Shown here one piece after another: positions 30,529-50,678 of a DNA stretch of 64,000 bases (positions within the stretch are counted from its first letter, which is position 1; each line of letters opens with the position of its first letter). A model generated the notes under the pieces. The model was given only the letters and a program-made list of their open reading frames with translations, ran no database searches and was not told the DNA's origin. Source of the DNA: Streptomyces antimycoticus (lineage in GTDB: Bacteria > Actinomycetota > Actinomycetes > Streptomycetales > Streptomycetaceae); NCBI RefSeq assembly GCF_005405925.1, contig NZ_BJHV01000001.1, positions 62,001 to 126,000 of the forward strand, in the 5' to 3' direction. The translations under genes were made by a program, and so were the position numbers.

Positions 30529-31003
30529 TCATTCCACTGCGGCTGATCCCTTCAAGCGGGCGAAGGCGAGTATGTCGGGGACTCCTTCGCGCAGGCTCCC
30601 GAAGTGACGGTGCACGCCGCTCACCGCGACCGCGGCGTTGACCCCCCACACCGTCATGCCGGCCCTCAGCCCTGCCTTGACTCCGGAGGGGGCGTCCTCG
30701 ATGACCAGGCAGTCCTCGGGTTCGGCACCGAGCTGCTCGGCGGCCAACAGGTAGGGCACGGGCGACAGTTTGCCCTCCTCCACTGCGGCGGCGTCGACAA
30801 TGACGCGCCGCGGCTACCTGCGCGAAGGTCTCCATCGGTCGCGTCCGCAGCGCCACCCGATAGACCTCATCCGCGTCCAGGCGATATCGCTCCGCCCACA
30901 TGTCCCAGACCCGGCGTTGGTTGTCCACGGCGTCGATCAACGTACCGTCGACATCGAACAGGACGTACTTCGTGGGTCTGGGCTGCACAGGCTCACGGGT
31001 CAC
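30529..31003 (-). pseudogene. HAD-family hydrolase (beta-phosphoglucomutase/GPP-like) with an internal deletion
   Basis: GTG 31003 opens PTKYVLFDVDGTLIDAVDNQ, the DxDGT motif, and continues to METFAQVA. The text then jumps, in another frame, to RVIVDAAAVEEGKLSPVPYL and CLVIEDAPSGVKAGLRAG, where the late Lys and Asp motifs of the HAD fold sit, to the stop at 30529. Roughly 60 residues containing the Ser/Thr motif are lost at the junction near 30800. A deletion of this kind cannot be a simple base-calling error. A 7-base tandem repeat covers the start. Confidence 0.7.
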
Positions 31004-32736: not shown

Positions 32737-32850
32737 CAGCCGTTGCCTCCCGTGGCGGCGTGCGTGGCAGTCGGGGCCGGGCGCGGGCCGGGCACGCCCG
32801 GCCTCCCTGCCCAGACCCACGCTTGGACGGTAGGACCGGCTCAGGCGAAG

Positions 32851-33630
32851 CTATTCCGGAGCACTACGGGCGGGGACGGGAAGGCGGCCGCCGAGGAGAC
32901 TGCCGGTGCCCGGCACATGCGGGGGCAGGCCGAGTTCGACGAGGATGCGGTACGCCGTGGCGGTGGCCGCGGACAGAACGGGCAGGCCGACCGCGTCCTC
33001 GACTGGTTGGATCGACGGCAGGGACGGCATCTGGACGCACGCCGACAGTACGAGGGCGTCGGCACGTGACAGGTCCAGGCGCCGCCAGTGGTCGAGTAGA
33101 TCCGCCGGGTCCAGCCGGGCGACGGCGAGATTGTCCGGTACCTCCAGGCTCAGCGCGTCCACGACCTCGATGTCCGCGTCCTCGATGTAGTTCGCGACCA
33201 GCCCCGTGAGCGGCTTCATATAGGGCGTGATGATCGCGACCCGTTTGGCCCCGAGTGCCTTGATACCGTCGAGAAGGGCACCCGCGCTGGACACCACGGG
33301 TGCCTGGGCGCCTTGCGCTCGCAGCACAGCGGTGATCTCGTCCTCCGCCGTGCAGTGGTACCCCGCGCCCTGCGCCATGATCGCGACGAGACAGGCTGTG
33401 GCCACGACGTCCGGCCGCGCGTCGGCGAGTTCCAGCGCGGCACGCTCGGTCTGCGCGTTCATGGCGCGCAGCTGCTCGGGAGTCACCTGCTGCATGCGCA
33501 TCCGGCTGCTGTGGAACACGAACCGGTCCTCGGGGACTGCCGACTCGCGCAGCCGCAGGATTCGGGGCAACTCCTTTTCCATGGTGAGGTTCGAGCTGGG
33601 CACGATCAGGCCGACGTGATGATCGGTCAC
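32851..33630 (-). CDS. nicE: Maleate cis-trans isomerase (NicE-like)
   Basis: 259 residues from GTG 33630, with GGAGGA just upstream. Asp/Glu racemase superfamily fold: VGLIVPSSNLTMEKELPRIL at the N-terminus, Cys80 in ATACLVAIM and Cys198 in VLSACVQMPS. These two Cys, 118 residues apart, match the catalytic pair of maleate isomerases (Cys76/Cys194 in the Nocardia enzyme). The reaction converts maleate to fumarate, the last step of the maleamate pathway. It is the last gene of the leftward nic operon, 80 bases after the MarR gene. Arylmalonate decarboxylase and hydantoin racemase are relatives, but the neighbourhood favours NicE. Confidence 0.88.
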   Translation of the reverse strand: MTDHHVGLIVPSSNLTMEKELPRILRLRESAVPEDRFVFHSSRMRMQQVTPEQLRAMNAQTERAALELADARPDVVATACLVAIMAQGAGYHCTAEDEITAVLRAQGAQAPVVSSAGALLDGIKALGAKRVAIITPYMKPLTGLVANYIEDADIEVVDALSLEVPDNLAVARLDPADLLDHWRRLDLSRADALVLSACVQMPSLPSIQPVEDAVGLPVLSAATATAYRILVELGLPPHVPGTGSLLGGRLPVPARSAPE

Positions 33631-33710
33631 GGAATCCTCCGGTTGTCCGGTGTACGGGCCTCGCCGACGACCCGCGGGCCCGTTCCCGTGGCCTGCCGTG
33701 CCACGGCGGT

Positions 33711-34193
33711 TCACCCGTCCTGAGTCAGTTGCTCCCAGTGGTCGGCGAGGGATGCGAGCAGATGCGTGATGTCGTCGCGCTGCTGTGGTCCGTACGGCTC
33801 CAGGAGCTGTTCGTCGAGCAGGCGGGCGCGGCGGTTCGCGTCGTCGAGGGTGTGTTTGCCTTCCTCGGTCAGATAGAGCAGTTTGCGCCGGCCGTCGTCG
33901 GCGGCCGTTCTGCGGACGATCAGGCCGCGCTTCTCCAGGCGGCGGGCGACGTCCGTCATGGTCGACGTGTCGAGGGCGACCGCTGACGCCAGCGATCGCT
34001 GGTCGTGCCCCGGGCTCGCGTCCACGACCTGGAGCACCGCGAACTGCGGCCCGGTCAGGAGCGGGTCGACCGCCCTGATCCAGACGGCGAGGTATGCCTG
34101 GTACAGGCGCCGGACCTGGTACCCGGGCGCGGTCGTCAGCGCGGCGGGTGGCCGGGGCCGCGGGGACGTCGAAGGTGCGGTTTCGTCAGCCAT
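33711..34193 (-). CDS. nicR: MarR-family regulator of the nic operon (NicR-like)
   Basis: 160 residues. Winged helix: LTGPQFAVLQVVDASPGHDQ, SLASAVALDTSTMTDVARRL then EKRGLIVRRTAADDGRRKLL. NicR of Pseudomonas putida is a MarR-type repressor that responds to 6-hydroxynicotinate. This protein sits in the same kind of cluster between nicD and nicE. That it controls this operon is inferred from position. The inverted repeat at 44406-44433 upstream of nicX is a candidate site. Confidence 0.8.
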   Translation of the reverse strand: MADETAPSTSPRPRPPAALTTAPGYQVRRLYQAYLAVWIRAVDPLLTGPQFAVLQVVDASPGHDQRSLASAVALDTSTMTDVARRLEKRGLIVRRTAADDGRRKLLYLTEEGKHTLDDANRRARLLDEQLLEPYGPQQRDDITHLLASLADHWEQLTQDG

Positions 34194-34266
34194 GGCGCCT
34201 ACTTAAGCACGCCGCGTCATCGCCCCCGCGCGGGGATGGAGGGGCTGGGAATCGAGGAGCCACCGG

Positions 34267-35127
34267 TCAGGCGAGCATCGGGCGCAGTGCTTCCCGCAGG
34301 CTCGCGAGGGCGGCGGGAGGATTGTCCCAGAACAGCATGTGGCCGGCGGCCGGTATCCGGCTCAGTGAGGCCGTGGGGTTCTTCCGGGCCGCCTCTGCCG
34401 CGCCCAACTCGGTGACCACGGGGCTGTCCGCGCCGTACAGCAGCACCGTGGGGCCGGGGACGGAGGACCACCAGTCGAAGAAGTCCTCGCTCTCGAAACC
34501 GCGGTGGGTGGCCTTGATGGCCTCCTCGCCGCAACTGGCCAGCCACCGGGCCCTCAACTCCAGCTCCCGGTGCGGCCACCGAGGCCACGCCCTGGCCACT
34601 TCCGCGGCGGTGGTGCCGCGTACGGCCTGCGCCAGCTGGTCCAGGAAGGCGTCCACGGGTGTCGGGTAGGGTCCGCGCCCCGGGCCGCTCATGGGCGGGT
34701 CGCCCAGAACCGTGCCCCGGAGCGGGACCTTGTTCCGCGCCGCGGTGACCGCGGCGATGCGCGCGCCCATGGAATGCCCGAACAGCACCGGCCGGTCGAG
34801 CCCGAGCCGCATGACGACGGCCTCCGTGTCCTCGGCGTACTCCTCCAGCCCGTAGCCGTCGCCATCGTCGGACAGCCCGCGCCCACGGACGTCGACGACC
34901 ACCGGACGTACGAGGTCGGTCAGCTCACGCACGACGAAGTCCATCGTGATCGCGGGACTGGTGATGCCGGGCATGACGAGGAGCGGGACACCAGGGCCGC
35001 CGTAGTCGAGGACGTGCAGGCGGGTGGCGCCCGAATACACCCAGCGGCTCGTGGCGGGCACATCGGCGAGATCGGCGAGCGCGCTCTGCGGCAGGCTACG
35101 GGCAGCCGGGGACGGGTGCGGGGTCAT
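34267..35127 (-). CDS. nicD: N-formylmaleamate deformylase (NicD-like alpha/beta hydrolase)
   Basis: 286 residues. Alpha/beta hydrolase with the nucleophile elbow LFGHSMGARIA (Ser119), LGDPPM (Asp143) and AAGHMLFW (His263). The offsets of +24 and +144 from the Ser equal those of the Pseudomonas NicD triad (Ser101, Asp125, His245), including the unusual early position of the Asp. It would hydrolyse N-formylmaleamate to maleamate and formate. It lies 37 bases after nicF and 73 before the MarR gene. Confidence 0.88.
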   Translation of the reverse strand: MTPHPSPAARSLPQSALADLADVPATSRWVYSGATRLHVLDYGGPGVPLLVMPGITSPAITMDFVVRELTDLVRPVVVDVRGRGLSDDGDGYGLEEYAEDTEAVVMRLGLDRPVLFGHSMGARIAAVTAARNKVPLRGTVLGDPPMSGPGRGPYPTPVDAFLDQLAQAVRGTTAAEVARAWPRWPHRELELRARWLASCGEEAIKATHRGFESEDFFDWWSSVPGPTVLLYGADSPVVTELGAAEAARKNPTASLSRIPAAGHMLFWDNPPAALASLREALRPMLA

Positions 35128-35164
35128 GCGGCCTCCAACGGCGGGTGGTGCGGGTAGGGCAAGG

Positions 35165-35826
35165 TCATGGCGCTACGACCGGGAGCGCCGAGAGGTAGGC
35201 GATGGCGTCCTCGAGGTCGATCACGTCGCCGTACTTGGCCTGGATGTCGTACAGGTTGGCCTCATGAGGACCCGCCGCGCGGTCGCCGACGCATTCACGC
35301 GGCACCAGCACCGAGAGCCCGGACTGCACGGCGTCGACCGCGGTGGCCCGCACGCAGCCGCTGGTCGTCGCCCCGCAGACGAGCACGGTGTCGCGGCCGA
35401 GCCCGGTCAGCAAGGAGGCCAGCGCCGTGCCGAAGAACGCGGAAGCGCCCTTCTTGGCGATCACGTGGTCCCGTGCCCCACGCGGCAGCCGTGGATCGAT
35501 CGTGACTTCCTCACTGTCCTCGACCAGGGCTCGCATGCCTCGCGCCTTGTGCAGCCAGGTCACCGCGTCTCCGGTCGCCTCGGCCGAGGTGTAGGCAATG
35601 GTCGTGAACACGACCGGCACTCCGGCGGGACGGCCTGCCTCGATCAGCGCGGACGTCGCACCGACCACCTCGGTCAGATCGGCCCCGAGGGGAACCGGTC
35701 CTCGGTGAACCCGCGCGTCAGATCGACCACGACGATCGCCGGCCGGTCGCCGCGCCGGACCGGCGCGCCGAAGCCCGCCCGGTCGTAGGTGCGTTCCGTG
35801 TCCAGTCCGTACGGCGCCTCGCTCAC
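35165..35826 (-). pseudogene. nicF: Maleamate amidohydrolase (NicF-like isochorismatase fold), frameshifted as sequenced
   Basis: GTG 35826 overlaps the coxG-like stop as GTGA. MSEAPYGLDTERTYDRAGFG leads to AIVVVDLTRGFTEDRFP. One C is missing from the run at 35689-35692; restoring it gives LGADLTEVVGATSALIEAGR and the rest to 35165. The cysteine-hydrolase triad is visible: Asp35 in VVVDL, a Lys in VIAKKGASAFFGT (125/126) and Cys158 in TTSGCVRAT. Restored length is 220 residues. The enzyme would convert maleamate to maleate and ammonia. All neighbours of the pathway are intact, so a sequencing error is more likely than loss of the gene; N-carbamoylsarcosine amidase is the nearest alternative. 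Confidence 0.82.
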
Positions 35827-36530
35827 AACGACCTCCGCAGGGTGCGCAGTTCGCGTGACTGGGCGCGCATCCGGCCGACGAGCCAGCCCTGGACGAGACC
35901 GAGCGCGAACGCCCCGGCGAGCATCCCGTACTTGGCGGCGGCGGGGCCGAACACCATGGACACGCCGTCGAGTTCGGGCTGCCGAGCGGGAGCGGCCGGC
36001 GTGCGGGCCGGGTGCGCGGCGGCGGGAGCGGTGGCTGAAGGGGCGGCGGGCACCGCGGACAGCGGTCCGGGTTGCCCGGCGGCATGGTCCTGATCGAGCA
36101 GACCGGCCAGGTTCTGCGCGAACTGCCGCAGGATTCGCTCCGATACGGCGCCGATCGCCCCCTTGCCGAACTGAGCGATCTTGCCCCGGATCACCAGATC
36201 GGTGGCGAGCTGGAGCAGCGCGCCCTCGGGTGCGCCCAGCACATCGAGGACGACTTCGGCCTCCGCGTCGCCGCTTCCGTGTGTGTCGGCGCCGCGGGCG
36301 TGGACGCGCAGCCGCCGGTGCTCGGGGTCGACTTCCAGGAAGCGGACCGTGCCGGCGTACGAGGCCGTGATCGGCCCCACTTTGACCTTTACGCTGCCCT
36401 TCCAGGTGTCCCCGTCCTGCCCTTCGAGCGCGGCGCCCGGCATGCACGAGGCGACCCGTTCGACGTCGTTCATCAAGGTGAAGACGTCATCGGGTGAGGC
36501 TTTGACCGGAATGGAGTTGGTCAGTTGCAC
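35823..36530 (-). CDS. CoxG-like SRPBCC protein with a C-terminal membrane helix
   Basis: 235 residues. The N-terminal 145 residues are a CoxG/SRPBCC domain (VKASPDDVFTLMNDVERVAS, CMPGAALEG, GSVKVKVGPITASYAGTVRF, GKGAIGAVSERILRQFAQNL). An Ala/Pro linker of about 40 residues leads to one membrane helix (YGMLAGAFALGLVQGWLVG). CoxG recruits the Mo-containing CO dehydrogenase to the membrane in Oligotropha. Here it lies three bases after the 2Fe-2S subunit gene, so it probably anchors this hydroxylase to the membrane and its electron acceptor. The stop overlaps the nicF start. Confidence 0.83.
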   Translation of the reverse strand: MQLTNSIPVKASPDDVFTLMNDVERVASCMPGAALEGQDGDTWKGSVKVKVGPITASYAGTVRFLEVDPEHRRLRVHARGADTHGSGDAEAEVVLDVLGAPEGALLQLATDLVIRGKIAQFGKGAIGAVSERILRQFAQNLAGLLDQDHAAGQPGPLSAVPAAPSATAPAAAHPARTPAAPARQPELDGVSMVFGPAAAKYGMLAGAFALGLVQGWLVGRMRAQSRELRTLRRSL

Positions 36531-36533
36531 AGG

Positions 36534-37067
36534 TCAGTCCTCCTTGCTGGGGCACGTCTGTGCACAGGCCCGGCGGCGGGCCGTCGCACAGGCGTCGATC
36601 GCCTCGACGATGGTCTGGTAGCCGGTGCACCGGCACATGTTGGCGGCGACGACCTCCCGGATCTCCTCCTTGGTCGCCTCGGGCCGCTCCGCGAGGAAGC
36701 CCTCGGCGAGCATGAGGAACCCCGGTGTGCAGAAACCGCACTGCAAGGCGTGGTGTTCGCTGAACGCCCGCTGGAGGTCGCTCAGCCGGTTGCCGTCGGC
36801 GAGGGATTCCACCGTACGGATGCGGGCGCCTTCGGCCTGTGCCGCGAACATCAGGCAGGCACGTACGGGCCGGTCGTCGACGAGTACGGTGCAGGCGCCG
36901 CAGATGCCGTGCTCGCACCCGACGTGGGTTCCGGTCAGGCGCAGCTCGTGGCGGAGCACATCGACGAGGGTGCGGCGGGCTTCGGTGATCACCTCGTGCC
37001 GCTCGCCGTTGACATTCAACGCGATGAGCTGTGGCTCCCGCGGCGTCATGAGGGTGTCATCGGTCAT
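36534..37067 (-). CDS. Molybdenum hydroxylase small subunit, two [2Fe-2S] clusters (nicotinate hydroxylase)
   Basis: 177 residues from ATG 37067, overlapping the large-subunit stop as ATGA. Plant-type ferredoxin Cys at 51, 56, 59 and 71 (CEHGICGACTVLV ... ACLMF), then the helical-domain cluster Cys110, 113, 145 and 147 (QCGFCTPGF ... MCRCTGYQ). This is the CoxS/XdhC/NdhS-type subunit that relays electrons from the Mo site to FAD. NicA of Pseudomonas is the equivalent. Substrate is inferred from the nic context. Confidence 0.9.
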   Translation of the reverse strand: MTDDTLMTPREPQLIALNVNGERHEVITEARRTLVDVLRHELRLTGTHVGCEHGICGACTVLVDDRPVRACLMFAAQAEGARIRTVESLADGNRLSDLQRAFSEHHALQCGFCTPGFLMLAEGFLAERPEATKEEIREVVAANMCRCTGYQTIVEAIDACATARRRACAQTCPSKED

Positions 37068-39436
37068 GGGACGGGCTCCGGGTTCAGGGCGCGGTGCACG
37101 GTCTGTGGCGTGATGGGCGTGTGGTCGAGTTCGGTGCCGGTGGGGCGCAGGGCGTCGTTGACGGCGTTGAGGACGGCGGCGGGCGCCCCGATGGTGCCGC
37201 CCTCTCCGGCGCCCTTCGCTCCCGTGGCGGTGAACGCGCAAGGGGTTTCCAGGTGGTGGATCGACACCTCGGGGATCTCTTGGGCCGTGGGCACCTTGTA
37301 GTCCATGAAGCTCGTCGCCGACGGCTCGCCGACCGCGTCGTAGGTCACCTCCTCGTACAGGGCACCGGCGATGCCCTGCGCGATCCCGCCCCGGCACTGT
37401 CCCTCCACGACCTGCGGGTGGATCGCGACGCCGCAGTCCTCGACGCACACGTATCGCAGGATCTCCACCTTCCCGGTGCCCTGGTGGAGCTCGACGACCA
37501 CACCGTGGGTGGCGTTGGAGAACGTGCCGTCGTTGAAGACGTCGAAGGTGGCGGTCGCGGTCAGCCCCGGTTCGATGTCCTTGGGCAGCAGATCCGCCCG
37601 GAGGTAGGCGACCTCGGCGATCTCCTGGTGGGTGAGCACGTCATGGGCACCGTCGCCGCCTCGGCGGCGCACATGGCCGCCCGCCAGCTCCACCTGCTCC
37701 GGCTCGGTGTCCCACAGGGCGGCGGCGATGGCGCGCAGCTTGTCGCCGAGTCGCTCGGCGGCCAGGCGCACCGCACTGCCGCCGACGGTGATGGACCGGC
37801 TCGCGAAGGTGCCCCAGCCGTAGGTGACACGGTCGGTGTCGCCCTGGTGGAGCCTGACCCGGGCGATGTCGAGGCCGAGTGCGTCGGCGACGATCTGCGC
37901 CATTGTCGTCTCGTGGCTTTGCCCATGGCTCATCGTGCCGGTGGTGACCGTCACCGCGCCGCTGGTGTCCATCCGTACTTCGGAGATGTCGAAGCCCGGC
38001 ACCACCTGCATCTTGCGCTGTGCGAAGGCCGAGGAACCGTATCCGGTGCGCTCGCTGAAGCAGGCGTAGCCGATGCCGATGTGCCGTCCTTCGGCCGCCG
38101 CCGCGGTCCGCGTGTCGTACCAGCCCTCGTCCCTGACGACCCGCTCGCACAGGTTCAGGGACTCCAGGTACGAGCCGGGGTCGTAGGTGATGTCGTTGAC
38201 GCCCGTGTAGGGGAAGTCGGTGATGACATTGCGGCGGCGGATCTCCACCGGGTCCAGGCCGAGTTCGCGGGCGGCGCGCTCGAAGAGCCGCTCGACGACC
38301 ATCACGTACTGCGGGCGGCTCACACCCCGGTACGGTGCGGTCGGCGCCTTGTTGGTGGTGATGGCCCGGCCGCGGACCCGGTAGGCGGGCACCTTGTACA
38401 CCCCGGGCATCTCGGCGGACGCCATCAGCGGCTCGATGCCCGCGGTGAACGGATAGCAGGAGTAGGCGCCCATGTCGCACACCACGTCCGCGTCGAGAGC
38501 GAGGATCCGGCCGTCGGTGTCGAAGGCGGCGCGCGCCCGGTAGTGCTGCTCGCGGGCGAGAAAGGACGCGGACAGGGCGTCCTTGCGGTCCTCGATCCAT
38601 TTCACCGGCCGCCCCAGTCGCAGCGCGGCCGCGGCGGCCGCGATCTCCTCGCGTCCGACCACGCACTTCTGGCCGAAGCCGCCGCCCATGTCGGGGACCA
38701 CGACCCGCACGGCTCGCTCGTCGAGGCGCAGGCAGCGTGAGGCGACCGTTCGCACCTGGTGCGGGACCTGGGTGCAGGTCTGGAGGAGAAGTTGCTCCTC
38801 GCGGTCGTCCCAGTGCGCCACGGCGCCGCGGGTCTCCAGCGGCAGCGCGTTCTGACGGCCGGTCGTGACGTCCACCTCGACGACGCGGTGCGCCGCGTCG
38901 AAGATGTCGTCGATCCCGTCGGTCGCGAAGAGCGAGACGTCCACGAGGGTGTTGCGGGCGGCCTCGTCGTGGACGAGCACCGCGTCGTCGGCGAGCGCCG
39001 TCTCCTCCCCGAGGACGGGTGGCAGCGGGGCGTACTCCACATGCGCCGCCTCCAGGCCGTCCTCCGCGGCGTAGGCGTCGAGACCCACGACGATCGCGAG
39101 GGGCTCCCCGACGTAGCGGACCTTGTCGCGGGCGAGGACCGGCATGGCGGTCGGCACGAACTGCGACCGGGGACGTCCCAACTGAGCGGTGATGTCGGCG
39201 ATGGCCAGGTCGTCCGCGGTGAACGCCGCCACGACGCCCGGGACGCGGCGTACCGCCGACAGGTCCATGGACATGATCTCGCCGTGCGCGACCGTGCTGC
39301 GCACGAACTGCGCGTGCAGCATGCCGGGCAGGGCGATGTCGTCCACGAACCGGCCGCGCCCGGACACCAGCCGCCGGTCCTCCCGGCGCGGGACCGACCG
39401 GCCCACCAGCGGCCGCCCTCTTTCCTGACGTGTCAT
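37064..39436 (-). CDS. Molybdenum hydroxylase large subunit (MoCo-binding; nicotinate hydroxylase)
   Basis: 790 residues. Xanthine-oxidase-family order: RREDRRLVSGRGRFVDDIAL, VGEPLAIVVGLDAYAAEDG, VVVPDMGGGFGQKCVVGREE, TNKAPTAPYRGVSRPQ, TGTMSHGQSHETTMAQI and GAKGAGEGG, in which Glu745 corresponds to the catalytic base near the Mo. It lacks the C-terminal cytochrome c domains found in Pseudomonas NicB. With its small and FAD subunits it makes an L-S-M heterotrimer like CO dehydrogenase or Gram-positive nicotinate dehydrogenases. Overlaps both neighbours by ATGA. The CoxL signature AYRCSFR is not present, so it is not a CO dehydrogenase. Confidence 0.88.
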   Translation of the reverse strand: MTRQERGRPLVGRSVPRREDRRLVSGRGRFVDDIALPGMLHAQFVRSTVAHGEIMSMDLSAVRRVPGVVAAFTADDLAIADITAQLGRPRSQFVPTAMPVLARDKVRYVGEPLAIVVGLDAYAAEDGLEAAHVEYAPLPPVLGEETALADDAVLVHDEAARNTLVDVSLFATDGIDDIFDAAHRVVEVDVTTGRQNALPLETRGAVAHWDDREEQLLLQTCTQVPHQVRTVASRCLRLDERAVRVVVPDMGGGFGQKCVVGREEIAAAAAALRLGRPVKWIEDRKDALSASFLAREQHYRARAAFDTDGRILALDADVVCDMGAYSCYPFTAGIEPLMASAEMPGVYKVPAYRVRGRAITTNKAPTAPYRGVSRPQYVMVVERLFERAARELGLDPVEIRRRNVITDFPYTGVNDITYDPGSYLESLNLCERVVRDEGWYDTRTAAAAEGRHIGIGYACFSERTGYGSSAFAQRKMQVVPGFDISEVRMDTSGAVTVTTGTMSHGQSHETTMAQIVADALGLDIARVRLHQGDTDRVTYGWGTFASRSITVGGSAVRLAAERLGDKLRAIAAALWDTEPEQVELAGGHVRRRGGDGAHDVLTHQEIAEVAYLRADLLPKDIEPGLTATATFDVFNDGTFSNATHGVVVELHQGTGKVEILRYVCVEDCGVAIHPQVVEGQCRGGIAQGIAGALYEEVTYDAVGEPSATSFMDYKVPTAQEIPEVSIHHLETPCAFTATGAKGAGEGGTIGAPAAVLNAVNDALRPTGTELDHTPITPQTVHRALNPEPVP

Positions 39437-40281
39437 CGGGCCATCGCCTCCTCACAGGCGCGCCGGACCAGGGTCCGGACCAGTTCCTTGCGGTAGTGCG
39501 AACCGCAGGACGCCTCGCCCGCGGGGTCGGCGGCCGCCGCCGCGGCGGACGCGCAGGCCTCGAAGGAGCCGCCGCCGGTCAGCACCGCCTCCGCCTCCGG
39601 AACGCGGATGGCCGCCGCCGCCACACCACCGAGCGCCACCCGGCCGCCGCGTACGGCGCCGTCCACGACATCGAGGTCCACGGCCGCCGCCACGATCGCG
39701 AAGTCGCCACGTCGCTCGGCGAACTCGGTGAGCGCCGCGTGCGGCGCCGTCCGTGGGAAGACGATCTCCACCAGGAGTTCGTCCGGGGCGAGGGCGGTCG
39801 TGTAGTAGCCGAGGAAGAAGTCCCCGGCCGCGATCGAGCGTTCGCCCAGGGGGCCGCGTACGACGAACTCGGCGTCCAGGAGCACCGCGAGCAGACACCA
39901 TTCGGCGGTGGCGTCCGCGTGTGCCATGCTGCCCCCGACCGTGCCGCGGGTACGGATCGGCAGATGCCCGATCCAGGCCATGGCCCGGCGCATCACCTCG
40001 AAGCCCTGCGCGAGTGTGCCCGCCGGGTCTCTCTCCACGGTGTGGTGGGTGGTGAGCGCCCCGATCCGCAGCGCCCCGGCGGCATCGCGGTGCATGCGGT
40101 CGAGCTCCCGGAGGCCGCCGATGTCGACGAGGTGGTGCGGACGGGCCAACCGGAAGTTCATCATTCCGACCAGGCTCTGTCCGCCCGCGATGGCCTTGGC
40201 GTCGTCACCCAGCTCGGCCAGCAGCCGGACGGCGCCGGCTACGTCACGGGCCCGGTGATACTGAAAGGGCGCGGGCTTCAT
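39433..40281 (-). CDS. Molybdenum hydroxylase medium subunit, FAD-binding
   Basis: 282 residues from ATG 40281. The PCMH-type FAD domain has KAIAGGQSLVGMMNFRLARP (the AGGQSL motif) and RTRGTVGGSMAHADATAEW (TxGGN/S-AHADP motif). The C-terminal CO_deh_flav domain follows (ALTEFAERRGDFAIVAAAVD). It shuttles electrons from the 2Fe-2S subunit to an acceptor. No [4Fe-4S] insert of the 4-hydroxybenzoyl-CoA reductase type is seen. First of the three hydroxylase genes in the transcript, 60 bases after the transporter. Confidence 0.9.
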   Translation of the reverse strand: MKPAPFQYHRARDVAGAVRLLAELGDDAKAIAGGQSLVGMMNFRLARPHHLVDIGGLRELDRMHRDAAGALRIGALTTHHTVERDPAGTLAQGFEVMRRAMAWIGHLPIRTRGTVGGSMAHADATAEWCLLAVLLDAEFVVRGPLGERSIAAGDFFLGYYTTALAPDELLVEIVFPRTAPHAALTEFAERRGDFAIVAAAVDLDVVDGAVRGGRVALGGVAAAAIRVPEAEAVLTGGGSFEACASAAAAAADPAGEASCGSHYRKELVRTLVRRACEEAMAR

Positions 40282-40341
40282 GGGTTTCCTGTCCTCCCTT
40301 GCGTGGGGTCGCCTCATGTGCGGTTCCGTGCGTGTCCCGGG

Positions 40342-41739
40342 CTAGACCACCGTCTGTTCGCGGACCGCGCGAGGTTCCTGGGCCCGGACGTCCGCGGTGT
40401 CCCCGTCCAGGGCCCGGCCCTTCGTCTCCGGCGCCGCGATGGCCATCCACACAACGGCGACCAGCACCGCGAGTCCGAGCACGGCGAACGTCACGGCGAG
40501 CCCGAGCGCCGGCCACATCACCGACCCGAACAGCAGCGGCGCGAACCCGGTGAGTGCCCGGCTGACCGAGGAGGCCCAGCCGAAGCCGCTGGCCCGCAGA
40601 GGCGTGGGGTACAGCTCGGAGACGTAGGCGTACATGGCGGGGATGGCGAGCTGCATCAAGAAGCCGAAGGCGGCGATCGCCACGACGGACCCGGTCGGCG
40701 CCCTCATCACCAGCGCGAACACCACCAGCGCGAGGGCAGCGACCGGAGCCGAGACCCCGATGAGCCACTTGCGGCCGACCACGTCCACCAGGGCGGTGGA
40801 GACGAGGACGCCGAGGATGCCGACGCCGCTCATCACGGTGGTGTTCATGAAGCTGGCGGTGTCCCCCAGGCCCTCCTCCTTGAGGATGGAGGGCATCCAG
40901 CTGAGAGCCGCGTAGTACACGAGCATCACGGTGGCGAACAGCGACCAGGCCACGGAGGTGACACGCGGGCTGTGCGCCCATATGTCGCGCAGCTGCTCCA
41001 CGGCGGCGGCCACACCGCGTCGGCCGGTCCCGGCGACGGGCTCCGGGATGACGTACGGCTCGGCTGGAGCGCCGGTACGGGCGACGAGGTCGTCGATGAC
41101 GGCCCTGGCCTCGGCCTCGCGTCCCTTCTTCGTCAGGTAGACCGGTGACTCGGGGATGCCCCGGCGCACCCAGAACAACAGGAGCGCGGGCAGCACCATG
41201 GTCGCCAGCATCCAGCGCCAGTTGCCGTCGAGGGGGACCATCACCGTCGAGACGAGACCGCACAGCGTCACACCCACCGGCCACCACAGGTCGAGCGCGG
41301 TGAGCACCCGGCCGCGGTACGCCCGCGGCGAGAACTCACCGACCAGGGCGTAGTCGACGGGGATGCAGCCGCCGAGCCCCACACCCGCGAGGAAACGCAG
41401 GGCCAGGAAGAGTGGGTACGTGGGCGACAGGGCGCCCAGCACCGAGAACAGGGCGAAGATCAGCAGTGTGACGCTGAACGCCTTCGTGCGTCCGATGCGG
41501 TCCGCGACCGCGCCCCAGGCGATGGCACCCACGGCCATGCCGACGAGGTTGGCGGTCGCCACGAGCCCGCGCCCGCCGAGCGAGAGGTCGAAGTGCGAAC
41601 CCAGGAGCGGCATGAGGAAACCGTTCAGGGCGATGTCGTAGGCGTCGAAGAGGTAGCCGAGACCTCCGATGATGAAAATGCGTCCCTGGACGCCCCATCT
41701 CCAGGGAAGTTCCTGAACGATCTGATCACCGGTTTTCAT
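40342..41739 (-). CDS. nicT: MFS transporter, aromatic-acid:H+ symporter type (NicT-like)
   Basis: 465 residues from ATG 41739. Twelve hydrophobic segments with the family motifs GYLFDAYDIALNGFLMPLLG (TM1; AAHS-type D-x-D), WGAVADRIGRTKAF (loop 2-3) and RFLAGVGLGGCIPVDYALVGEF (TM4-5), and PETKGRALDGD at the end. Sugar- and aromatic-acid porters share these. Its place between nicC and the hydroxylase argues for uptake of nicotinate or 6-hydroxynicotinate, the role of NicT in Pseudomonas. Confidence 0.83.
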   Translation of the reverse strand: MKTGDQIVQELPWRWGVQGRIFIIGGLGYLFDAYDIALNGFLMPLLGSHFDLSLGGRGLVATANLVGMAVGAIAWGAVADRIGRTKAFSVTLLIFALFSVLGALSPTYPLFLALRFLAGVGLGGCIPVDYALVGEFSPRAYRGRVLTALDLWWPVGVTLCGLVSTVMVPLDGNWRWMLATMVLPALLLFWVRRGIPESPVYLTKKGREAEARAVIDDLVARTGAPAEPYVIPEPVAGTGRRGVAAAVEQLRDIWAHSPRVTSVAWSLFATVMLVYYAALSWMPSILKEEGLGDTASFMNTTVMSGVGILGVLVSTALVDVVGRKWLIGVSAPVAALALVVFALVMRAPTGSVVAIAAFGFLMQLAIPAMYAYVSELYPTPLRASGFGWASSVSRALTGFAPLLFGSVMWPALGLAVTFAVLGLAVLVAVVWMAIAAPETKGRALDGDTADVRAQEPRAVREQTVV

Positions 41740-41854
41740 GTTCGCTCCACGGTGGTCGTGTATCGGGTGCATGCCGCGCCATTGCCGGTGTGGTACGCAC
41801 GGCTCGGGCGTGCGGGTCGTCAGTGCGCGGAGGCTTCCGCCACTGACGGTGGGC

Positions 41855-43123
41855 TCAGCGGGCGAACTGGTAGGAGAACGCCCCCAGATCCGGGTCGTTG
41901 AGCGGGGTTCCGCTCCACAGCCAGTCGTACGACACGTCCGACTCGCCGTCGAAGTTCGTGAGCTTCTCGTCCCTGGCCCGCTGCTCCGGGCCGTCGGCCA
42001 GGTGGTAGAAGGTCTTGTTCGCGAGCGACGCGTCCTGGACCATCCCGGCGTGCTTGGCACGCCGGTCGACGTAGCGGCGCAGCGCCCCTTCTATGCCGGA
42101 GGCGGTGACAGCGCCCAGTTCCTCGGCGAGTACGGCCGCGTCCTCCATGGCCTGCGAGGCGCCCTGCGCCTGATACGGGAGCATCGCGTGGCAGGCGTCG
42201 CCCAGGAGGGCGACGCGGCCGTCCAGCCATACGGGGTCGCGGCGCCGGTAGTAGAGGGCGAAGGCCAGGACGTCCTCCTTCGCCTTGGACAGCATCGCCG
42301 GGACACGGTCGTCCCAGCCGGGGAACGCCTCGACGAGGTCCTGCGCGGTGGCGGGAAGCGTCCAGTTCTCGCGGACCGCGTCCGTGCAGGGGACGCACGC
42401 CACGACGTTCAGATAGTCGCCGCCCCGGATCATGTAGTGGACGAGGTGCCGGTCGGGCCCGTACCAGATGGTGCTCTGATAGCGGTCCACGAGCCAGCGG
42501 GTGGCCGGGTCGGCCGCGATGAGGTCACCGGGGATCAGGGCCCGGTAGGCCATCTCGCCGGAGAACAGCAGCGTGTCGGGGGCGCCCATGAGGTCGCGCA
42601 CCCGGGATCGGACGCCGTCGGCGCCGATGATCACATCGGCGCCGTGGCGCCGTCCGTCCTCGGTGATCGCCACCGGCCGCACGGGATCGGTGCGGTCCAT
42701 TTCGACGACCTTGCTGGAGGTGTGGACCACCACGACGGGCCCGGGGCCCGCGGGGTCCGCACAGGCGTCCAGCAGCATGCGGTGCAGATCCGCCCGGTGG
42801 TAGTGCCAGTACGGGGCGTTGAACTCGTCCTTGCAGCGCTGCCCGAGCGAGGTCAGGCCGACGATCCGGCCGTCCGTCCACCGGCGCCGCACCTGGTCGA
42901 GCGGTTCCGTGCGGATGGCCTCCATCTGCCGGCGCAGCCCGAGACCCATCAGGACGCGGCTGGCGTTGGGCGCGGTCTGGATGCCCGCGCCGACCTCGCC
43001 GAGTTCGGCGGCCTGTTCCAGGACGGTGACCCGCAGGCCGCGGTGGCGCAGCGCCAGAGCGGCGGTCAGACCGCCGAGTCCTCCCCCGACGACGGTGACT
43101 TCGAACGACTGACTGGACGCCAC
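41855..43123 (-). CDS. nicC: 6-hydroxynicotinate 3-monooxygenase (NicC-like FAD monooxygenase)
   Basis: 422 residues from GTG 43123 (GGAGGA just upstream); ATG 43150 is an alternative. Class A flavoprotein monooxygenase: VTVVGGGLGGLTAALALRHR (GxGxxG), GADGVRSRVRD (DG motif), VALLGDACHAMLPYQAQGAS (GD motif). It is longer than Pseudomonas NicC by a C-terminal part ending PDLGAFSYQF. It would decarboxylatively hydroxylate 6-hydroxynicotinate to 2,5-dihydroxypyridine with NADH and O2. Salicylate-hydroxylase-type enzymes are relatives; the cluster context decides. Confidence 0.85.
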   Translation of the reverse strand: MASSQSFEVTVVGGGLGGLTAALALRHRGLRVTVLEQAAELGEVGAGIQTAPNASRVLMGLGLRRQMEAIRTEPLDQVRRRWTDGRIVGLTSLGQRCKDEFNAPYWHYHRADLHRMLLDACADPAGPGPVVVVHTSSKVVEMDRTDPVRPVAITEDGRRHGADVIIGADGVRSRVRDLMGAPDTLLFSGEMAYRALIPGDLIAADPATRWLVDRYQSTIWYGPDRHLVHYMIRGGDYLNVVACVPCTDAVRENWTLPATAQDLVEAFPGWDDRVPAMLSKAKEDVLAFALYYRRRDPVWLDGRVALLGDACHAMLPYQAQGASQAMEDAAVLAEELGAVTASGIEGALRRYVDRRAKHAGMVQDASLANKTFYHLADGPEQRARDEKLTNFDGESDVSYDWLWSGTPLNDPDLGAFSYQFAR

Positions 43124-43197
43124 TCTTCCTCCAATGTGCGGGCGCGTCATGGTCTTGTGTGCGGCGCGGCTGGTACGGCGGCTCGCCCCGAAGGCGC

Positions 43198-44229
43198 TCA
43201 GCGGTCGGTGAGCGTCCCGGCGGTGACGACCTCGGTGCCGTCCACGGAGACGGTGCAGCCCCGCATGGCGATGTCGAGGTGGGCGTACGACTCGCGGCCC
43301 AGGACCGGGTGGGGACCGGTCGACCACAGGAAGTTCCCCGCGAACGCGCGGGCGTCCATGCCCATCAGCTCGTCCTTGCCGTACATCGCCGTGGCGAACC
43401 AGTCGGCCGTACGCATCAGGCCCCAGCCCATGTGGGACAGGCTGCGGGCCCAACGGTCCTGTGCGTCGTCGAAGAACGTCGACAGCATCCGGGCCTGGGC
43501 TCCGCCGGAGACCTTCTCGATGTGGCCGTCGGATACCTGAAGCGTGACGGGGCTGCTGACGTACTCCTTGAAGGGCAGCAGGATGTCGCCCTCATCCAGC
43601 ACGATCTGCCCGCCTGAGATCTCCGGCCAGCACAGCACCATGGTGCTCGGCCAGTGGTCCCAGCGGCCCGGATCGTCGGCGAAGCCGCACTGGAACTCCG
43701 GCTTGGCGCCCGCGAGCTGCACGGTCAGGTCGGTGCCCGCGGCCGAGGTGACCCGCATGACGGACGACCTCTCCAGCAGGTCGACGCCCTCCTGCACCTC
43801 CGCCTTGTCGCTTTCCTTGGGCAGATTGCGAATGAGCACGTCGGGCGCGTCGCAGATGAAGATGATGCGGGTGCCGGCCCGCCGGATCTCCTGCTGGACC
43901 GGCGCGTGGATGAAGCCCTCGCGGGTCAGGTCGACGACCAGGTCCGCGGATTTCAGCAGGTCCTGGGCGGCGCTGTCGTTGAGGACGGACAGCAGCCCGG
44001 GGCCCGCGCCGGTGTGTGTGCTCGGCATCGGCGCGGGGCTGCCCCCGGGAACGGTTGCCGCGATGACGTGTGCACCACATGCTTTGGCCGCGCCGAAGGC
44101 CGCCGCCACGTAGTCGCCCCGGCTGCCGGGCTCCGACAGTACGACCACGTGCTCGCCCTCGCGGACCTTGCACAGTCGCAACTCGCGGGTGAAGGCGTCG
44201 AGCAGATCGGCGGAAGAGAGATCGAACAC
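43198..44229 (-). CDS. nicX: 2,5-dihydroxypyridine 5,6-dioxygenase (NicX-like)
   Basis: 343 residues from GTG 44229, five bases after GGAGG. It belongs to the M29-aminopeptidase-like fold used by NicX, not the classical extradiol folds. Fe(II) ligands can be placed at His266 (SLSHMGWG), His317 and Asp319 (SYAHLDIAM); Pseudomonas NicX uses His265, His318 and Asp320. It opens 2,5-dihydroxypyridine to N-formylmaleamate. First gene of the operon, with an inverted repeat 177 bases upstream. An aminopeptidase annotation is the likely automated misreading. Confidence 0.87.
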   Translation of the reverse strand: MFDLSSADLLDAFTRELRLCKVREGEHVVVLSEPGSRGDYVAAAFGAAKACGAHVIAATVPGGSPAPMPSTHTGAGPGLLSVLNDSAAQDLLKSADLVVDLTREGFIHAPVQQEIRRAGTRIIFICDAPDVLIRNLPKESDKAEVQEGVDLLERSSVMRVTSAAGTDLTVQLAGAKPEFQCGFADDPGRWDHWPSTMVLCWPEISGGQIVLDEGDILLPFKEYVSSPVTLQVSDGHIEKVSGGAQARMLSTFFDDAQDRWARSLSHMGWGLMRTADWFATAMYGKDELMGMDARAFAGNFLWSTGPHPVLGRESYAHLDIAMRGCTVSVDGTEVVTAGTLTDR

Positions 44230-44405: not shown

Positions 44406-44433
44406 GGAGATAATCCGAACACGTACTATCTCC
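44406..44433. promoter_or_regulatory. Inverted repeat GGAGATA-N14-TATCTCC upstream of nicX
   Basis: GGAGATA (44406-44412) and TATCTCC (44427-44433) are perfect inverted repeats in the only long upstream spacer of the nic operon. A MarR-family regulator such as the one at 33711 would bind a site of this size. Confidence 0.55.
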
Positions 44434-44699
44434 GCTTGGCAAGGGGTGGTCCCGGAGTTAACACGGATCTTCTCCGGCGACGCCGGGGAGGGCCGTCACC
44501 GTCACGGCCCTGACCTGCGGTGGAAACGTTCGCATCCGATACCATGCCGCCTCGGCCCGCGTGGTACGTGGATTTTCCGTCAGCCGGGCAGGCGAATGGG
44601 CCTTCTCGTATATCGGCGCGTGGCCCTGGTCAGGCTCTTCCTCAACGGCGGAGTGGACGCGCCACGTTGATCGCCGGGCCGGCGACCCCGGGTTCGCGG
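44434..44699. other. Intergenic stretch between nic operon and LacI gene
   Basis: About 265 bases upstream of the nic operator and downstream of the LacI gene. Only short frames without recognisable domains are present; no clear terminator was seen. Confidence 0.35.
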
Positions 44700-45671
44700 T
44701 CAGCCGCTGGAACCGCGGACCACGAGTTCGGGTTTCAGGACGACATCACCGCTGCCGCCATCGAGGAGGGCGAGGGACGCCTCGACCATGCGCTCGGCGG
44801 TCGAGCCCAGGGTGGTGAGCCCCGGCGCGGCGGTGTCGGAGATGTAGGTACCGTCGAAACTCGTGATCGCGTACTCGGCGGGCACCCGCTTACCGGCGTG
44901 TTGAAGCGCTGTCAGCAGGCCGAGCGCGACAGTGTCGGCGGTGCAGATGATCGCGTCTGTGGCGCCGGGATTCGCGAGCAGGAGCCTGGCCGCCTCGATG
45001 CCGCTCGCCACGGTGAAGTTCGGCATTTCCAGAACCCGGTCGTCCGGCCCGGCGAGCGCGCGGAACGCGGTTGTGCGCTCGATGCTCGACGAGGAGTCTT
45101 CCTGGGCGTCGACCATCAGGATGCCGCGCCGGCCCCGCGCCCGCAGATGATCCGCGAGCAGGCGGACCCCCGCCGCGTTGTCGAGCCGTACCGACGGCGC
45201 TTCAACGCCTCGCGCACGGCGGTCGACCTGCACGACCCGGTTGGACCGCGCGAGCTCCGTGATCGCCGCGCCGCTCCGCTCGAACGCCGCGGGCACCACG
45301 AGTACCGCGTCCACCAGCACACGATCCATGGCGCCGAGCTGGCGCCGCTCGGTCTCCGGGCTCTCTCCCGTGTCGATCGTCACCAGCCGCTTGCCCTGAA
45401 GATCCAGGCGGCGCGAATACGCCGACACCAGCTCCGCGAAGTACGCGTTCGCGATCGCGGGAACGACAAGCGCCAACGAATCCGTCGACTGAAGCCGCAG
45501 CGCCCGCGCCGCCGCGTTCACCCTGTAGCCCAGTTCCTCGCATGCGTTCCGTACCCGCAGCGCCAGCTCCGGATCGACATTGCGCTCAACACCGGACAGC
45601 ACACGACTCGCCGTCGGCACCGACACCCCCGCGCGCGACGCCACGTCCTTCAAGCCGATGCGCGCGCCCAT
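44700..45671 (-). CDS. LacI-family repressor
   Basis: 323 residues from ATG 45671. HTH: IGLKDVASRAGVSVPTASRV with hinge LRLQSTDSLALVVP. Periplasmic-binding-like domain: IANAYFAELVSAYSRRLD, DAVLVVPAAFERSG, IICTADTVALGLLTAL and TSFDGTYISDTAAPGLTTLG. It is divergent from the ribokinase-like relic and the NCS1-GH operon. A GGAAA/TTTCC palindrome overlaps the rightward promoter, so it probably represses that operon in the absence of a sugar ligand. Confidence 0.87.
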   Translation of the reverse strand: MGARIGLKDVASRAGVSVPTASRVLSGVERNVDPELALRVRNACEELGYRVNAAARALRLQSTDSLALVVPAIANAYFAELVSAYSRRLDLQGKRLVTIDTGESPETERRQLGAMDRVLVDAVLVVPAAFERSGAAITELARSNRVVQVDRRARGVEAPSVRLDNAAGVRLLADHLRARGRRGILMVDAQEDSSSSIERTTAFRALAGPDDRVLEMPNFTVASGIEAARLLLANPGATDAIICTADTVALGLLTALQHAGKRVPAEYAITSFDGTYISDTAAPGLTTLGSTAERMVEASLALLDGGSGDVVLKPELVVRGSSG

Positions 45672-45727
45672 CCTGATCTCCCCTGGCTCGTGCCCGTCGA
45701 TGCTATCAGGGCGGTTTCGGCGACCCG

Positions 45728-45776
45728 TTGACGTGGCAGGGGCCAGCGTGCTTAGGTTCGGAAATGGTTTTCCCGA
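45728..45776 (+). promoter_or_regulatory. Promoter and LacI-type operator of the NCS1-glycosidase operon
   Basis: TTGACG (45728-45733) and TAGGTT (45753-45758) form a promoter-like pair with a 19-base spacer. Overlapping its downstream edge, TCGGAAATGGTTTTCCCGA (45758-45776) is a near-palindrome with perfect GGAAA/TTTCC arms, as in many LacI operators. Confidence 0.5.
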
Positions 45777-45828
45777 CGGGGAGAGTACGGCATGACGGCC
45801 CGCCGCAGGCTCTGGGGGCAGCGGGCGA

Positions 45829-46200
45829 GTGCTTGTCGCCGGTTCGGTGAACCTCTGCCTCGGCCGCACACCGCCGCGCCTGCCGCACGGTGCTGAGCGG
45901 ATTCGCACCACCGGGCGCTCGGAGGCGGGCGGAGGCAGGGGCGCGCACCAGTCCCTCGCCGGTCTTCTGCTCGCCCTCACCCCGGCCGCCCCCGGCGCCG
46001 ACGACGCGTTCACCGACGCGCCCGCCGCCCCTCTCACCCGCGGATTAGCGGTCCACCCCACCGCTTAGCGGTCCGCCTCACCGTCGTTTACGGGTCCGCC
46101 GCGGCCGCGGTGGCCGTCACCGCGGCCGCCGCACGCGGAGCCGCGTCGGCCCCGGACGCGGTCGAGGCGCTCCTCGAACGCGAACCCACGACTTCCCCGA
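45829..46200 (+). pseudogene. Ribokinase/PfkB-family sugar kinase remnant (internal deletion, frameshift)
   Basis: GTG 45829 reads VLVAGSVNLCLGRTPPRLPH then GGGRGAHQSLAG, a worn copy of the ribokinase start (VVGSxNxDLV ... GGKGANQAVA). It jumps directly to PAAPGADDAFTDAPAAPLTR, the GAGDAF anion-hole/catalytic segment with the first Gly lost, stops at 46068, and continues in another frame as AVRLTVVYGSAAAAVAVTAA then APDAVEALLE. Only the two ends of a 300-residue kinase survive. Confidence 0.6.
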
Positions 46201-46251
46201 ACTCAACCACCCGCCCCTCCCCCATCGCCATACGTCGAAAGGCGCCCTTCC

Positions 46252-47823
46252 ATGAGCAATGAGGCTCAGCAAGGTCGTAGAGGCACGACCGTCGAATCGA
46301 ACGGCGTCAATCCCGTTCCGGATGCCGAACGGCGCGGAAAGCCGCGCGGCCTGTTCGCCGTGTGGTTCGCCTGGAACATCTCGATCCTCGGCATCAGTTA
46401 CGGCATCTTCGTCTTCGGCCTCGGCCTGAACGTCTGGCAGACGATCGTCGCCGGGACCGCCGGCTACCTCACCTCGGCCACCCTCGTCGGCATCCTCGCG
46501 GTCGGCGGGCCCCGCACGGGGCTGCCGACCCTCGCCCAGACGCGCTTCGCGTTCGGCATGAAGGGGAACAGAATCCCCGCGTTCTTCGCCTACCTGTCCA
46601 ATATGGGATGGAAGGTGACGATCATCACGCTTGCCTCGACAACCGGGGCGAACCTGTTCGCGAAACTGTGGCCCTCGGTGTTCGCCGACACCGGCGGGTC
46701 GAGCACCACGTCCACGATCGTGCTGTGGTTCGTGCTCGTGCTCGCCGTGACGATGGCGGTCTCCGTCCTCGGCCACGAGCTCATCATGAAGGTCGAGGTC
46801 TGGATCTCGTGGGTGACCGGCATCATGACGGTCGCGTTCCTCGGATTCATGGTGCCCGAGATCGAGTGGGCACACCTCGGTGACACCCCTGCGGGCGGAC
46901 CGCTGGTGTTCACCGGCGGCATCATCATGGCGATGACCCTCGTCGGCCTCGGCTTCCTCAACTACGGCGGCGACTTCGCCCGTTACCTCCCGCGTGATAC
47001 CCCGGCGCGCGGCGTGATCAGCTGGACGGTCGCCGGGCTCAGCCTGCCGGTCGTCATCCTCCTCGCCGTCGGCGCGCTTCTCGTCGGCGGGGATTCGAAG
47101 CTCGGTGCCGCCGCGGCGTCCGACCCGATCGGGGCGCTCACCACGCTCCTGCCGATGTGGTTCTTCGTCCCGTTCTCCATCGTGATCGTCATCTCGCTCG
47201 TTTCGGCCGCCATCACCGGCATGTACAGCTCCGGCCTCGCGCTCATGGCGGTCGGCGTACCGCTGCGCCGTTCCGTGACGACCGCGATCAACGCGATCAT
47301 CATCGCGGCGGGCGCCTTCTATCTGCTGTTCATCTCCACCTCGTTCCTCGCCACGTTCCAGTCGTTCCTGTCGCTCATCGCCGTGATGATGGGCACCATG
47401 GGCGGCATCCAGCTCGTCGACTTCATCCGGCAGCGCCGCATGGGCTGGAACACCGATATGGCGAACCCGCGTGGCTACGGCGGCCGCGACGGGCGCTGGA
47501 CGGCGATCGTGAGTCTGATCACCGGAACCGTCGTCGGTCTCGGCCTCGTGACGAGCTCCGACCCGAACTTCGGGAAGATCACGGGATTCCTCCTCACCGA
47601 GAAGGGCCGCACCGGCGTGTTCGGGTCGAGCGGGCTCGGCATCGTCATCGCCTTGGCGCTCGGCGCCACGCTCTACGCGATCCTCACGTTCGGACTCCGG
47701 CTGGATCCGAAGCCCGACTACTCGCTCGTGACCGCGGGAGACACCGCTCGCGGGGAGGGCGGGCTCCAGGTACCGACTCCCGACACGGACGGCAGGCACG
47801 CTGCCGACCGCACGGAACGCTGA
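46252..47823 (+). CDS. NCS1-family nucleobase/cation symporter-like permease
   Basis: 523 residues from ATG 46252 with twelve hydrophobic segments. NCS1 features: LFAVWFAWNISILGISYGIF near TM1, GPRTGLPTLAQTRFAFGMKG in the TM2-3 loop, NYGGDFARYLPRDTPARGVI (TM6 region, NxxDxxRY-like) and LVDFIRQRRMGWNTDM after TM9. Family substrates include cytosine, purines, allantoin, hydantoins, and vitamins in fungi. It is in one operon with the glycosidase 56 bases downstream, so a base or a glycoside of it is a reasonable cargo. Confidence 0.85.
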   Translation: MSNEAQQGRRGTTVESNGVNPVPDAERRGKPRGLFAVWFAWNISILGISYGIFVFGLGLNVWQTIVAGTAGYLTSATLVGILAVGGPRTGLPTLAQTRFAFGMKGNRIPAFFAYLSNMGWKVTIITLASTTGANLFAKLWPSVFADTGGSSTTSTIVLWFVLVLAVTMAVSVLGHELIMKVEVWISWVTGIMTVAFLGFMVPEIEWAHLGDTPAGGPLVFTGGIIMAMTLVGLGFLNYGGDFARYLPRDTPARGVISWTVAGLSLPVVILLAVGALLVGGDSKLGAAAASDPIGALTTLLPMWFFVPFSIVIVISLVSAAITGMYSSGLALMAVGVPLRRSVTTAINAIIIAAGAFYLLFISTSFLATFQSFLSLIAVMMGTMGGIQLVDFIRQRRMGWNTDMANPRGYGGRDGRWTAIVSLITGTVVGLGLVTSSDPNFGKITGFLLTEKGRTGVFGSSGLGIVIALALGATLYAILTFGLRLDPKPDYSLVTAGDTARGEGGLQVPTPDTDGRHAADRTER

Positions 47824-47879
47824 CCGACCCGTGGCGGCGAGACCCGCGGGACTCGCCGCCGATCGAGGAGCTGACACCC

Positions 47880-50672: not shown

Positions 50673-50678
50673 TCCACC

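Follow-up and report, generated by a model that had tools for sequence, protein, structure and literature searches.

A stretch of 64,000 nucleotides from Streptomyces antimycoticus (bases 62,001–126,000 of a 10.92-Mb contig in a genome of 11.17 Mb; GC content, 70.4%), referred to here as the window, contains eleven leftward genes that probably form an operon for the aerobic use of nicotinate as a carbon and nitrogen source, leading from nicotinate to fumarate. In the proposed pathway, a major facilitator superfamily (MFS) protein would import nicotinate, and a molybdenum hydroxylase with L, M, and S subunits, held at the membrane by a CoxG-like protein, would hydroxylate the carbon beside the ring nitrogen to yield 6-hydroxynicotinate. 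As in its family, electrons would pass from molybdenum through two [2Fe-2S] clusters and FAD, and then to the membrane. A flavin monooxygenase would then exchange the carboxylate for a hydroxyl group, giving 2,5-dihydroxypyridine, and ring opening by NicX would produce N-formylmaleamate, from which NicD would free formate and NicF ammonia; NicE would finally convert maleate to fumarate. A MarR-family protein would repress the genes at an inverted-repeat-like site upstream of nicX and be released by a pyridine intermediate.

The lower, maleamate-type part of this route, in which 2,5-dihydroxypyridine is converted to fumarate, is a well-supported prediction. The best PDB matches are a 2,5-dihydroxypyridine dioxygenase for NicX, a deformylase for NicD, an isochorismatase-family hydrolase for the C-terminal part of NicF, and a maleate isomerase for NicE; the matched entries 4l0c and 4l07 are enzymes of the maleamate pathway. 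Solved relatives, together with the catalytic residues, make the assignments of NicX, NicD, and NicE likewise well supported. The residues named in a preliminary description of this DNA were confirmed by alignment with the proteins of Pseudomonas sp. BYT-5 (L071): His266/His317/Asp319 of NicX correspond to H265/H318/D320, Ser119/Asp143/His263 of NicD to S101/D126/H246, and Cys80/Cys198 of NicE to C80/C198. The NicX residues are invariant across six aligned rows. NicX matches no Pfam family at an E-value of 0.001, and its nearest named relative, from Streptomyces niphimycinicus, shares 98% identity, in keeping with the assignment of the DNA to Streptomyces.

For comparison, the clusters of Pseudomonas sp. 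BYT-5 and Pantoea dispersa (L073) were taken to be classical nic clusters on the basis of their annotation and the gene order of the P. putida nic genes. The operon shares NicX, NicD, NicE, NicF, a MarR gene, and the same proposed intermediates with the classical type. Instead of the two-subunit NicAB (NicB, 1195 amino acids), however, it has L, M, and S subunits with a CoxG-like protein, and it differs in monooxygenase lineage, transporter, and gene order; the earlier suggestion of a distinct gene order and hydroxylase type is thus correct. Identities to the BYT-5 proteins are 41% for NicX, 36% for NicD, 54% for NicE, 50% for the C-terminal part of NicF, 26% for MarR, 32% for the monooxygenase against NicC, 37% for S against NicA, and 21% over part of the length for the MFS protein; L matches NicB only in segments of 24–31%. 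Two quick trees were built without bootstrap. In the NicX tree (110 rows, 31 of them without a phylum label), NicX groups beside that of the classical clusters, and Actinomycetota (38 rows) and Pseudomonadota (41 rows) each lie on one side of a branch with support of 99; long branches, chiefly that of L061, were flagged. In the NicC-type tree (94 rows), where long branches were likewise flagged, branches of 2.53 and 2.17 changes per column separate the sequences of the BYT-5 type from the actinobacterial ones, and 11 other proteobacterial rows form a further group between the two. Collectively, the trees and identities indicate that the lower pathway is common to both cluster types, whereas the monooxygenase and NicC are not orthologous, and the name NicC given to the former earlier could not be upheld in that sense. 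The possibility that nicX was recently acquired from proteobacteria was rejected because the identities are near 40% and the sequences lie on opposite sides of the tree.

The known part of the operon is the lower route, as in Pseudomonas; what appears to be new is its combination with two upper enzymes of different ancestry. A search of open papers found no account of a nicotinate operon of the maleamate type in actinobacteria. Automated annotation had been expected to miss the pathway, which holds for the NicC family, where most of the named rows among the best 120 of 1084 are called FAD-dependent monooxygenase or oxidoreductase, or salicylate hydroxylase, but not for NicX, as many proteobacterial members are publicly named 2,5-dihydroxypyridine 5,6-dioxygenase.

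The L subunit aligns end to end with chain B of quinoline 2-oxidoreductase (PDB 1t3q). The hydroxylase has the components of the L/M/S type of the xanthine oxidase family, namely molybdopterin, FAD, and two-[2Fe-2S] subunits and a catalytic Glu: E745 of L aligns with E743 of 1t3q, the catalytic residue. Quinoline 2-oxidoreductase acts at the position beside the ring nitrogen; it resembles the present enzyme in its subunits, but differs in operon partners and probably in substrate. Identification of L as a CO dehydrogenase was rejected, as L has APYRGVSRP where CoxL (PDB 8uem) has AYACSFR, the AYxCSFR loop motif of aerobic CO dehydrogenase. The CoxG-like protein has a moderately hydrophobic C-terminal stretch (residues 201–219; mean hydropathy, 1.37), consistent with a putative role as a membrane anchor. 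CoxG-like proteins anchor other enzymes at the membrane and, in one archaeal case, electron transfer does not depend on such a protein (PMC11962113). The operon itself includes no xdhC, but proteins with XdhC-domain matches are encoded at two loci elsewhere in the genome.

In the PDB ranking of the monooxygenase, 4-hydroxybenzoate, vanillate, and tropone enzymes score 214–250 bits and one unnamed entry 252 bits, ahead of the solved 6-hydroxynicotinate monooxygenases at 168–170 bits. The top relatives include decarboxylating 4-hydroxybenzoate and vanillate enzymes (8gsm and 8x38, the latter so classed by its name). Since these reactions are chemically parallel to the conversion of 6-hydroxynicotinate to 2,5-dihydroxypyridine, they support the role proposed for the monooxygenase. 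When ten of the proteins (MarR excluded) were scanned against NCBIfam, no row shown reached its cut-off; the best row for the transporter was aromatic acid/H+ symport (233 bits vs. a cut-off of 419).

The step assigned to NicF requires separate consideration. Its N-terminal part (35,674–35,826) and C-terminal part (35,165–35,689) lie in different frames, and comparison with five relatives shows that the window has one base fewer within a brief run of G and C at about 35,683–35,686. The catalytic residues given earlier as Asp35, a Lys, and Cys158 do exist: D30, K120, and C153 of BYT-5 pair with D35, K79, and C112 of the two parts. An intact NicF does not, because the Asp is in one frame and the Lys and Cys are in the other. 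Likewise, the gene set for an operon leading to fumarate is present, but to call it complete overstated the case. The break may be real and the operon may be decaying in this strain, in which event the route would halt at maleamate and no longer yield ammonia and fumarate. We regard this as quite possible, if not the favored account. Besides the disagreement of the frames, it is favored by the comparison with G055: the alignment of 17.9 kb has nine indels whose length is not a multiple of three, two of them (at 47,848 and 50,684) near both ends of a gene without assigned identity, and the only one clearly within a gene is that in nicF, so the assembly is not riddled with such errors. Moreover, a decayed relative exists (G311, described below). 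On the other hand, a single base in a short G/C run is a common type of assembly error, the remaining ten genes are open, and the two parts of nicF are in frame in all 23 relatives that have both.

Several observations weigh against a functional route from nicotinate. In the present assembly, no intact gene is available for the step assigned to NicF, and among the nine isochorismatase-domain matches in the genome, nicF included, seven of the other eight were compared with the NicF of a relative, with a best long match of 29%. The two substrate-defining enzymes are not orthologues of NicAB and NicC, and the preliminary description, which treated nicotinate as settled, went too far in this respect. 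Of five active-site positions of NicC of P. putida (His47, Cys202, His211, Tyr215, and His302), the monooxygenase matches two, with H226 at His211 and Y230 at Tyr215, and has Gln, Thr, and Tyr at His47, Cys202, and His302; in an alternative alignment, T218 pairs with the Val adjoining Cys202. Its best NCBIfam row is 3-hydroxybenzoate 6-monooxygenase (240 bits vs. a cut-off of 459), and the transporter shares only 21–23% identity with its classical counterpart, in an alignment that covers part of the protein. The same lower pathway could instead be fed by a hydroxylase and a monooxygenase that act on another 3-substituted pyridine, e.g., 3-succinoylpyridine, as SpmABC and HspB do in nicotine breakdown by P. 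putida S16; we consider this unlikely, although the lack of orthology with NicAB and NicC would fit it. According to its description (PMC3812094), the nic2 cluster of S16 (spmABC, hspB, hpo, nfo, ami, and iso) pairs a three-subunit molybdenum hydroxylase, whose subunits resemble quinoline 2-oxidoreductase, with a monooxygenase of the flavin type, and its lower enzymes are those found here. A cluster of the S16 type would be expected to include genes for a nicotine oxidoreductase and an amine oxidase, and neither was seen among the flanking genes read here (the rest of the window and the genome were not searched for them). In addition, the group removed by several of the monooxygenase's closest PDB relatives is a carboxylate and not a longer side chain.

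A substrate without a carboxylate, such as 3-hydroxypyridine, would be converted by the hydroxylase directly to 2,5-dihydroxypyridine, with the monooxygenase serving elsewhere; this seems quite improbable. The 3-hydroxypyridine dehydrogenase of Ensifer adhaerens HP1 reportedly feeds 2,5-dihydroxypyridine, with no decarboxylating monooxygenase required. Three Cupriavidus loci (L116, L125, and L142) carry nicE-nicD-nicX-nicF with L, M, and S subunits and CoxG, and no monooxygenase was found in the stretch covered, which perhaps reflects the use of 3-hydroxypyridine. The Ensifer enzyme itself has been proposed to be a molybdenum hydroxylase with a CoxG homologue, as cited in PMC11962113. In the present group, however, the monooxygenase adjoins nicX at 21 of the 22 places where NicX identity is at least 59% (L036–L058; the exception is L058). 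On balance, nicotinate is the best candidate for the substrate.

The operon is not rare in the genus. NicX was sought at an E-value threshold of 1e-20 in samples of 392 genomes of the genus and 396 of the phylum, and was found in 26 and 8 of them, respectively, the source genome being included in both counts; the seven others of the phylum sample show 33–40% identity. All 26 NicX places outside the source genome, from 25 genomes, were then examined. All eleven genes recur at 20 of these places (the order is unchanged at 17, and nicE and marR have traded positions at 3), and the gene set is thus not due to chance. Of the remainder, L045, which is cut by a contig end, is without the transporter, hydroxylase, CoxG, and nicE, L048 has neither nicE nor the transporter, and the last four represent different contexts. 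Thirteen of 39 further loci (L074–L112), with species partly repeated from the genus sample, show the full set in the stretch covered, and operons of Embleya (L070), Yinghuangia (L099), Sphaerisporangium (L093), and Gordonia (L100) are without some genes there. Long DNA matches to the window begin at 32,809–32,894 in all six relatives compared; they end at 44,466–44,583, near the operon and its upstream region, in four (G165, G150, G122, and G280, the G150 contig stopping soon after) and extend to 49.6 kb or beyond in G055 and G384. Thus, the left border looks sharp and the right border often does. A DNA search was dominated by short chance matches (180 of 200 genomes); matches with E-values below 1e-90 occurred in only five other genomes (G931, G899, G779, G777, and G803). 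NicX-like proteins of about 40% identity were also seen in another context (L059, L060, and L072, the last on a Rhodococcus pyridinivorans plasmid); in L072, neighboring genes encode Rieske dioxygenase, ferredoxin, and NADH dehydrogenase-like proteins as well as a member of the racemase family that shares 62% identity with NicE.

A new finding is a candidate MarR operator of 28 bp that lies roughly 180 bp upstream of nicX and has 7-bp arms that match perfectly; its chance expectation was 0.00 in 100 shuffles. A search for a short-spacer palindrome common to 33 upstream regions had found none, and shared 8-mers pointed to the longer site. The exact arms are restricted to the close group of the window (11 of 170 loci, several from the same genome); in more distant Streptomyces, the core is conserved and the arms differ. 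In some loci, e.g., L076, L080, and L085, a change in one arm is accompanied by a change in the other; in others, e.g., L040 and L049, the arms no longer fully pair. No copy within nine mismatches was present in L093, L100–L102, L104–L109, L111, and L112. The 16-base core occurs in 21 of the 392 genomes of the genus, and its reversed control in none. Twenty of these 21 genomes carry nicX, with the core 110–362 bp upstream; among the 26 nicX genomes, the exact core is missing from six, of which G096 and G372 have a near copy, G092, G215, and G237 have divergent loci, and G357 has a locus (L057) that was not scanned. The co-occurrence gives a Fisher p of 2.6e-27, which is not independent proof, as the genomes share ancestry and site and gene are linked. 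G311, the sole genome with the core and without nicX, retains a marR (64% identity) about 0.6 kb from the site, with an S fragment between them. Second copies of the core face a divergent Rieske module in L077 and L083 and lie between marR and nicE in G233 and G389. The retention of marR in G311 and these second copies are more telling for a link between MarR and the site than is the p value. The G311 locus (L171, 8804–9891) appears as a remnant of the operon that consists of the operator core, a decayed S piece, and an open marR.

Variant front ends were observed at some loci. L077 and L083 have nicX, nicC, nicF, nicD, and marR (L083 also nicE) without a molybdenum hydroxylase, and a module of Rieske oxygenase, ferredoxin, ferredoxin reductase, and isochorismatase genes is divergent from the nic core (L077:99–5679 and L083:2979–9998). 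In L083, the core adjoins a transporter gene whose product shares 51% identity with its Pantoea nic counterpart, a point in favor of the proposed nicotinate route. The best PDB relatives of the Rieske oxygenase are 7qwt and dicamba O-demethylase, and the module is possibly an N- or O-demethylase front end that makes 6-hydroxynicotinate. Relatives of the Rieske protein (53–54% identity) lie on Sulfitobacter and Pseudosulfitobacter plasmids. On two of these (L186, Pseudosulfitobacter; L187, Sulfitobacter), the gene is near a molybdenum hydroxylase, an ABC transporter, and a gene named 6-hydroxynicotinate reductase by annotation only, possibly constituting a reductive N-methylpyridine pathway. 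A literature search on trigonelline and homarine gave nothing on the Rieske module among the papers listed (12 of 40). In L061, a monooxygenase of 73% identity occurs with an S–L fused molybdenum hydroxylase and XdhC. The variants fit 6-hydroxynicotinate as a common intermediate without being proof of it. A broader view, which we offer tentatively and with some doubt, is that actinomycetes assembled nicotinate breakdown independently, combining a shared core, which takes 2,5-dihydroxypyridine to fumarate, with front ends that can be exchanged (L/M/S with CoxG, S–L fused with XdhC, or Rieske demethylase-like) that would converge on 6-hydroxynicotinate via a separately recruited decarboxylating monooxygenase under one MarR–operator circuit. 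In this view, the Rieske front end would act as a demethylase on a nicotinate or pyridone that carries an N-methyl group.

If the nicotinate assignment is right, about 7% of the sampled genomes of the genus (26 of 392) would gain a niacin-degrading route with upper enzymes unlike those described. The hydroxylases would be new candidates for regioselective pyridine hydroxylation, and the regulator–operator pair would be open to testing. It also follows that names such as NicC are not transferable between phyla on gene order alone.

The features of the operon are listed in Table 1. As described earlier, eleven leftward genes occupy 32,851–44,229, with high GC at third codon positions and ribosome-binding-like sites before several starts. 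Intergenic gaps, obtained by subtraction of coordinates, do not exceed 115 bp (three 4-bp overlaps, one 3-bp gap, and otherwise 37–115 bp), and the genes may be transcribed as a single unit.

Table 1. Genes and candidate regulatory site of the putative nicotinate operon in the window.
Feature	Coordinates	Strand	Evidence
nicX, 2,5-dihydroxypyridine 5,6-dioxygenase, 343 aa	43198..44229	-	only PDB match 7cn3, E 4.5e-67; H266/H317/D319 conserved
nicC-like FAD monooxygenase, proposed 6-hydroxynicotinate 3-monooxygenase, 422 aa	41855..43123	-	PF01494; PDB ranking; tree; not a NicC orthologue
MFS transporter, proposed nicotinate uptake, 465 aa	40342..41739	-	PF07690
Molybdenum hydroxylase M subunit (FAD), 282 aa	39433..40281	-	PF00941, PF03450
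Molybdenum hydroxylase L subunit (molybdopterin), 790 aa	37064..39436	-	best PDB match 1t3q, E 1.4e-162
Molybdenum hydroxylase S subunit (two [2Fe-2S]), 177 aa	36534..37067	-	PF01799, PF00111
CoxG-like protein, proposed membrane anchor, 235 aa	35823..36530	-	PF06240; hydrophobic C-terminal stretch; role by analogy
nicF, maleamate amidohydrolase, frame-shifted near 35,683–35,686	35165..35826	-	C-terminal part matches 4l07, E 3.8e-47
nicD, N-formylmaleamate deformylase, 286 aa	34267..35127	-	best PDB match 4l0c, E 8.5e-48; S119/D143/H263
MarR-family regulator, 160 aa	33711..34193	-	PF01047
nicE, maleate cis-trans isomerase, 259 aa	32851..33630	-	best PDB match 4fq7, E 4.7e-75; C80/C198
28-bp inverted-repeat-like site, candidate MarR operator	44406..44433	-	7-bp arms, 14 bp between

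The operon lies about 105 kb or less from the contig end, and the strongest dnaA match of the genome is at 5.41 Mb, in the middle of the contig. In G165 and G384, the operon is about 286 and 133 kb from the contig end, respectively, and dnaA is near the middle; the contig of G055 begins at dnaA, and the operon is opposite, at 5.31 of 10.66 Mb. The region adjoining the operon (window 44646–50752) has a different theme, with a LacI regulator, a cytosine/purine-type permease, and a third gene, and is 97% identical to G055. Finally, a frame at 30509–31003 of the window has a HAD-phosphatase-like start but soon becomes senseless; it has no Pfam match at an E-value of 1e-5 and is perhaps a second broken gene.

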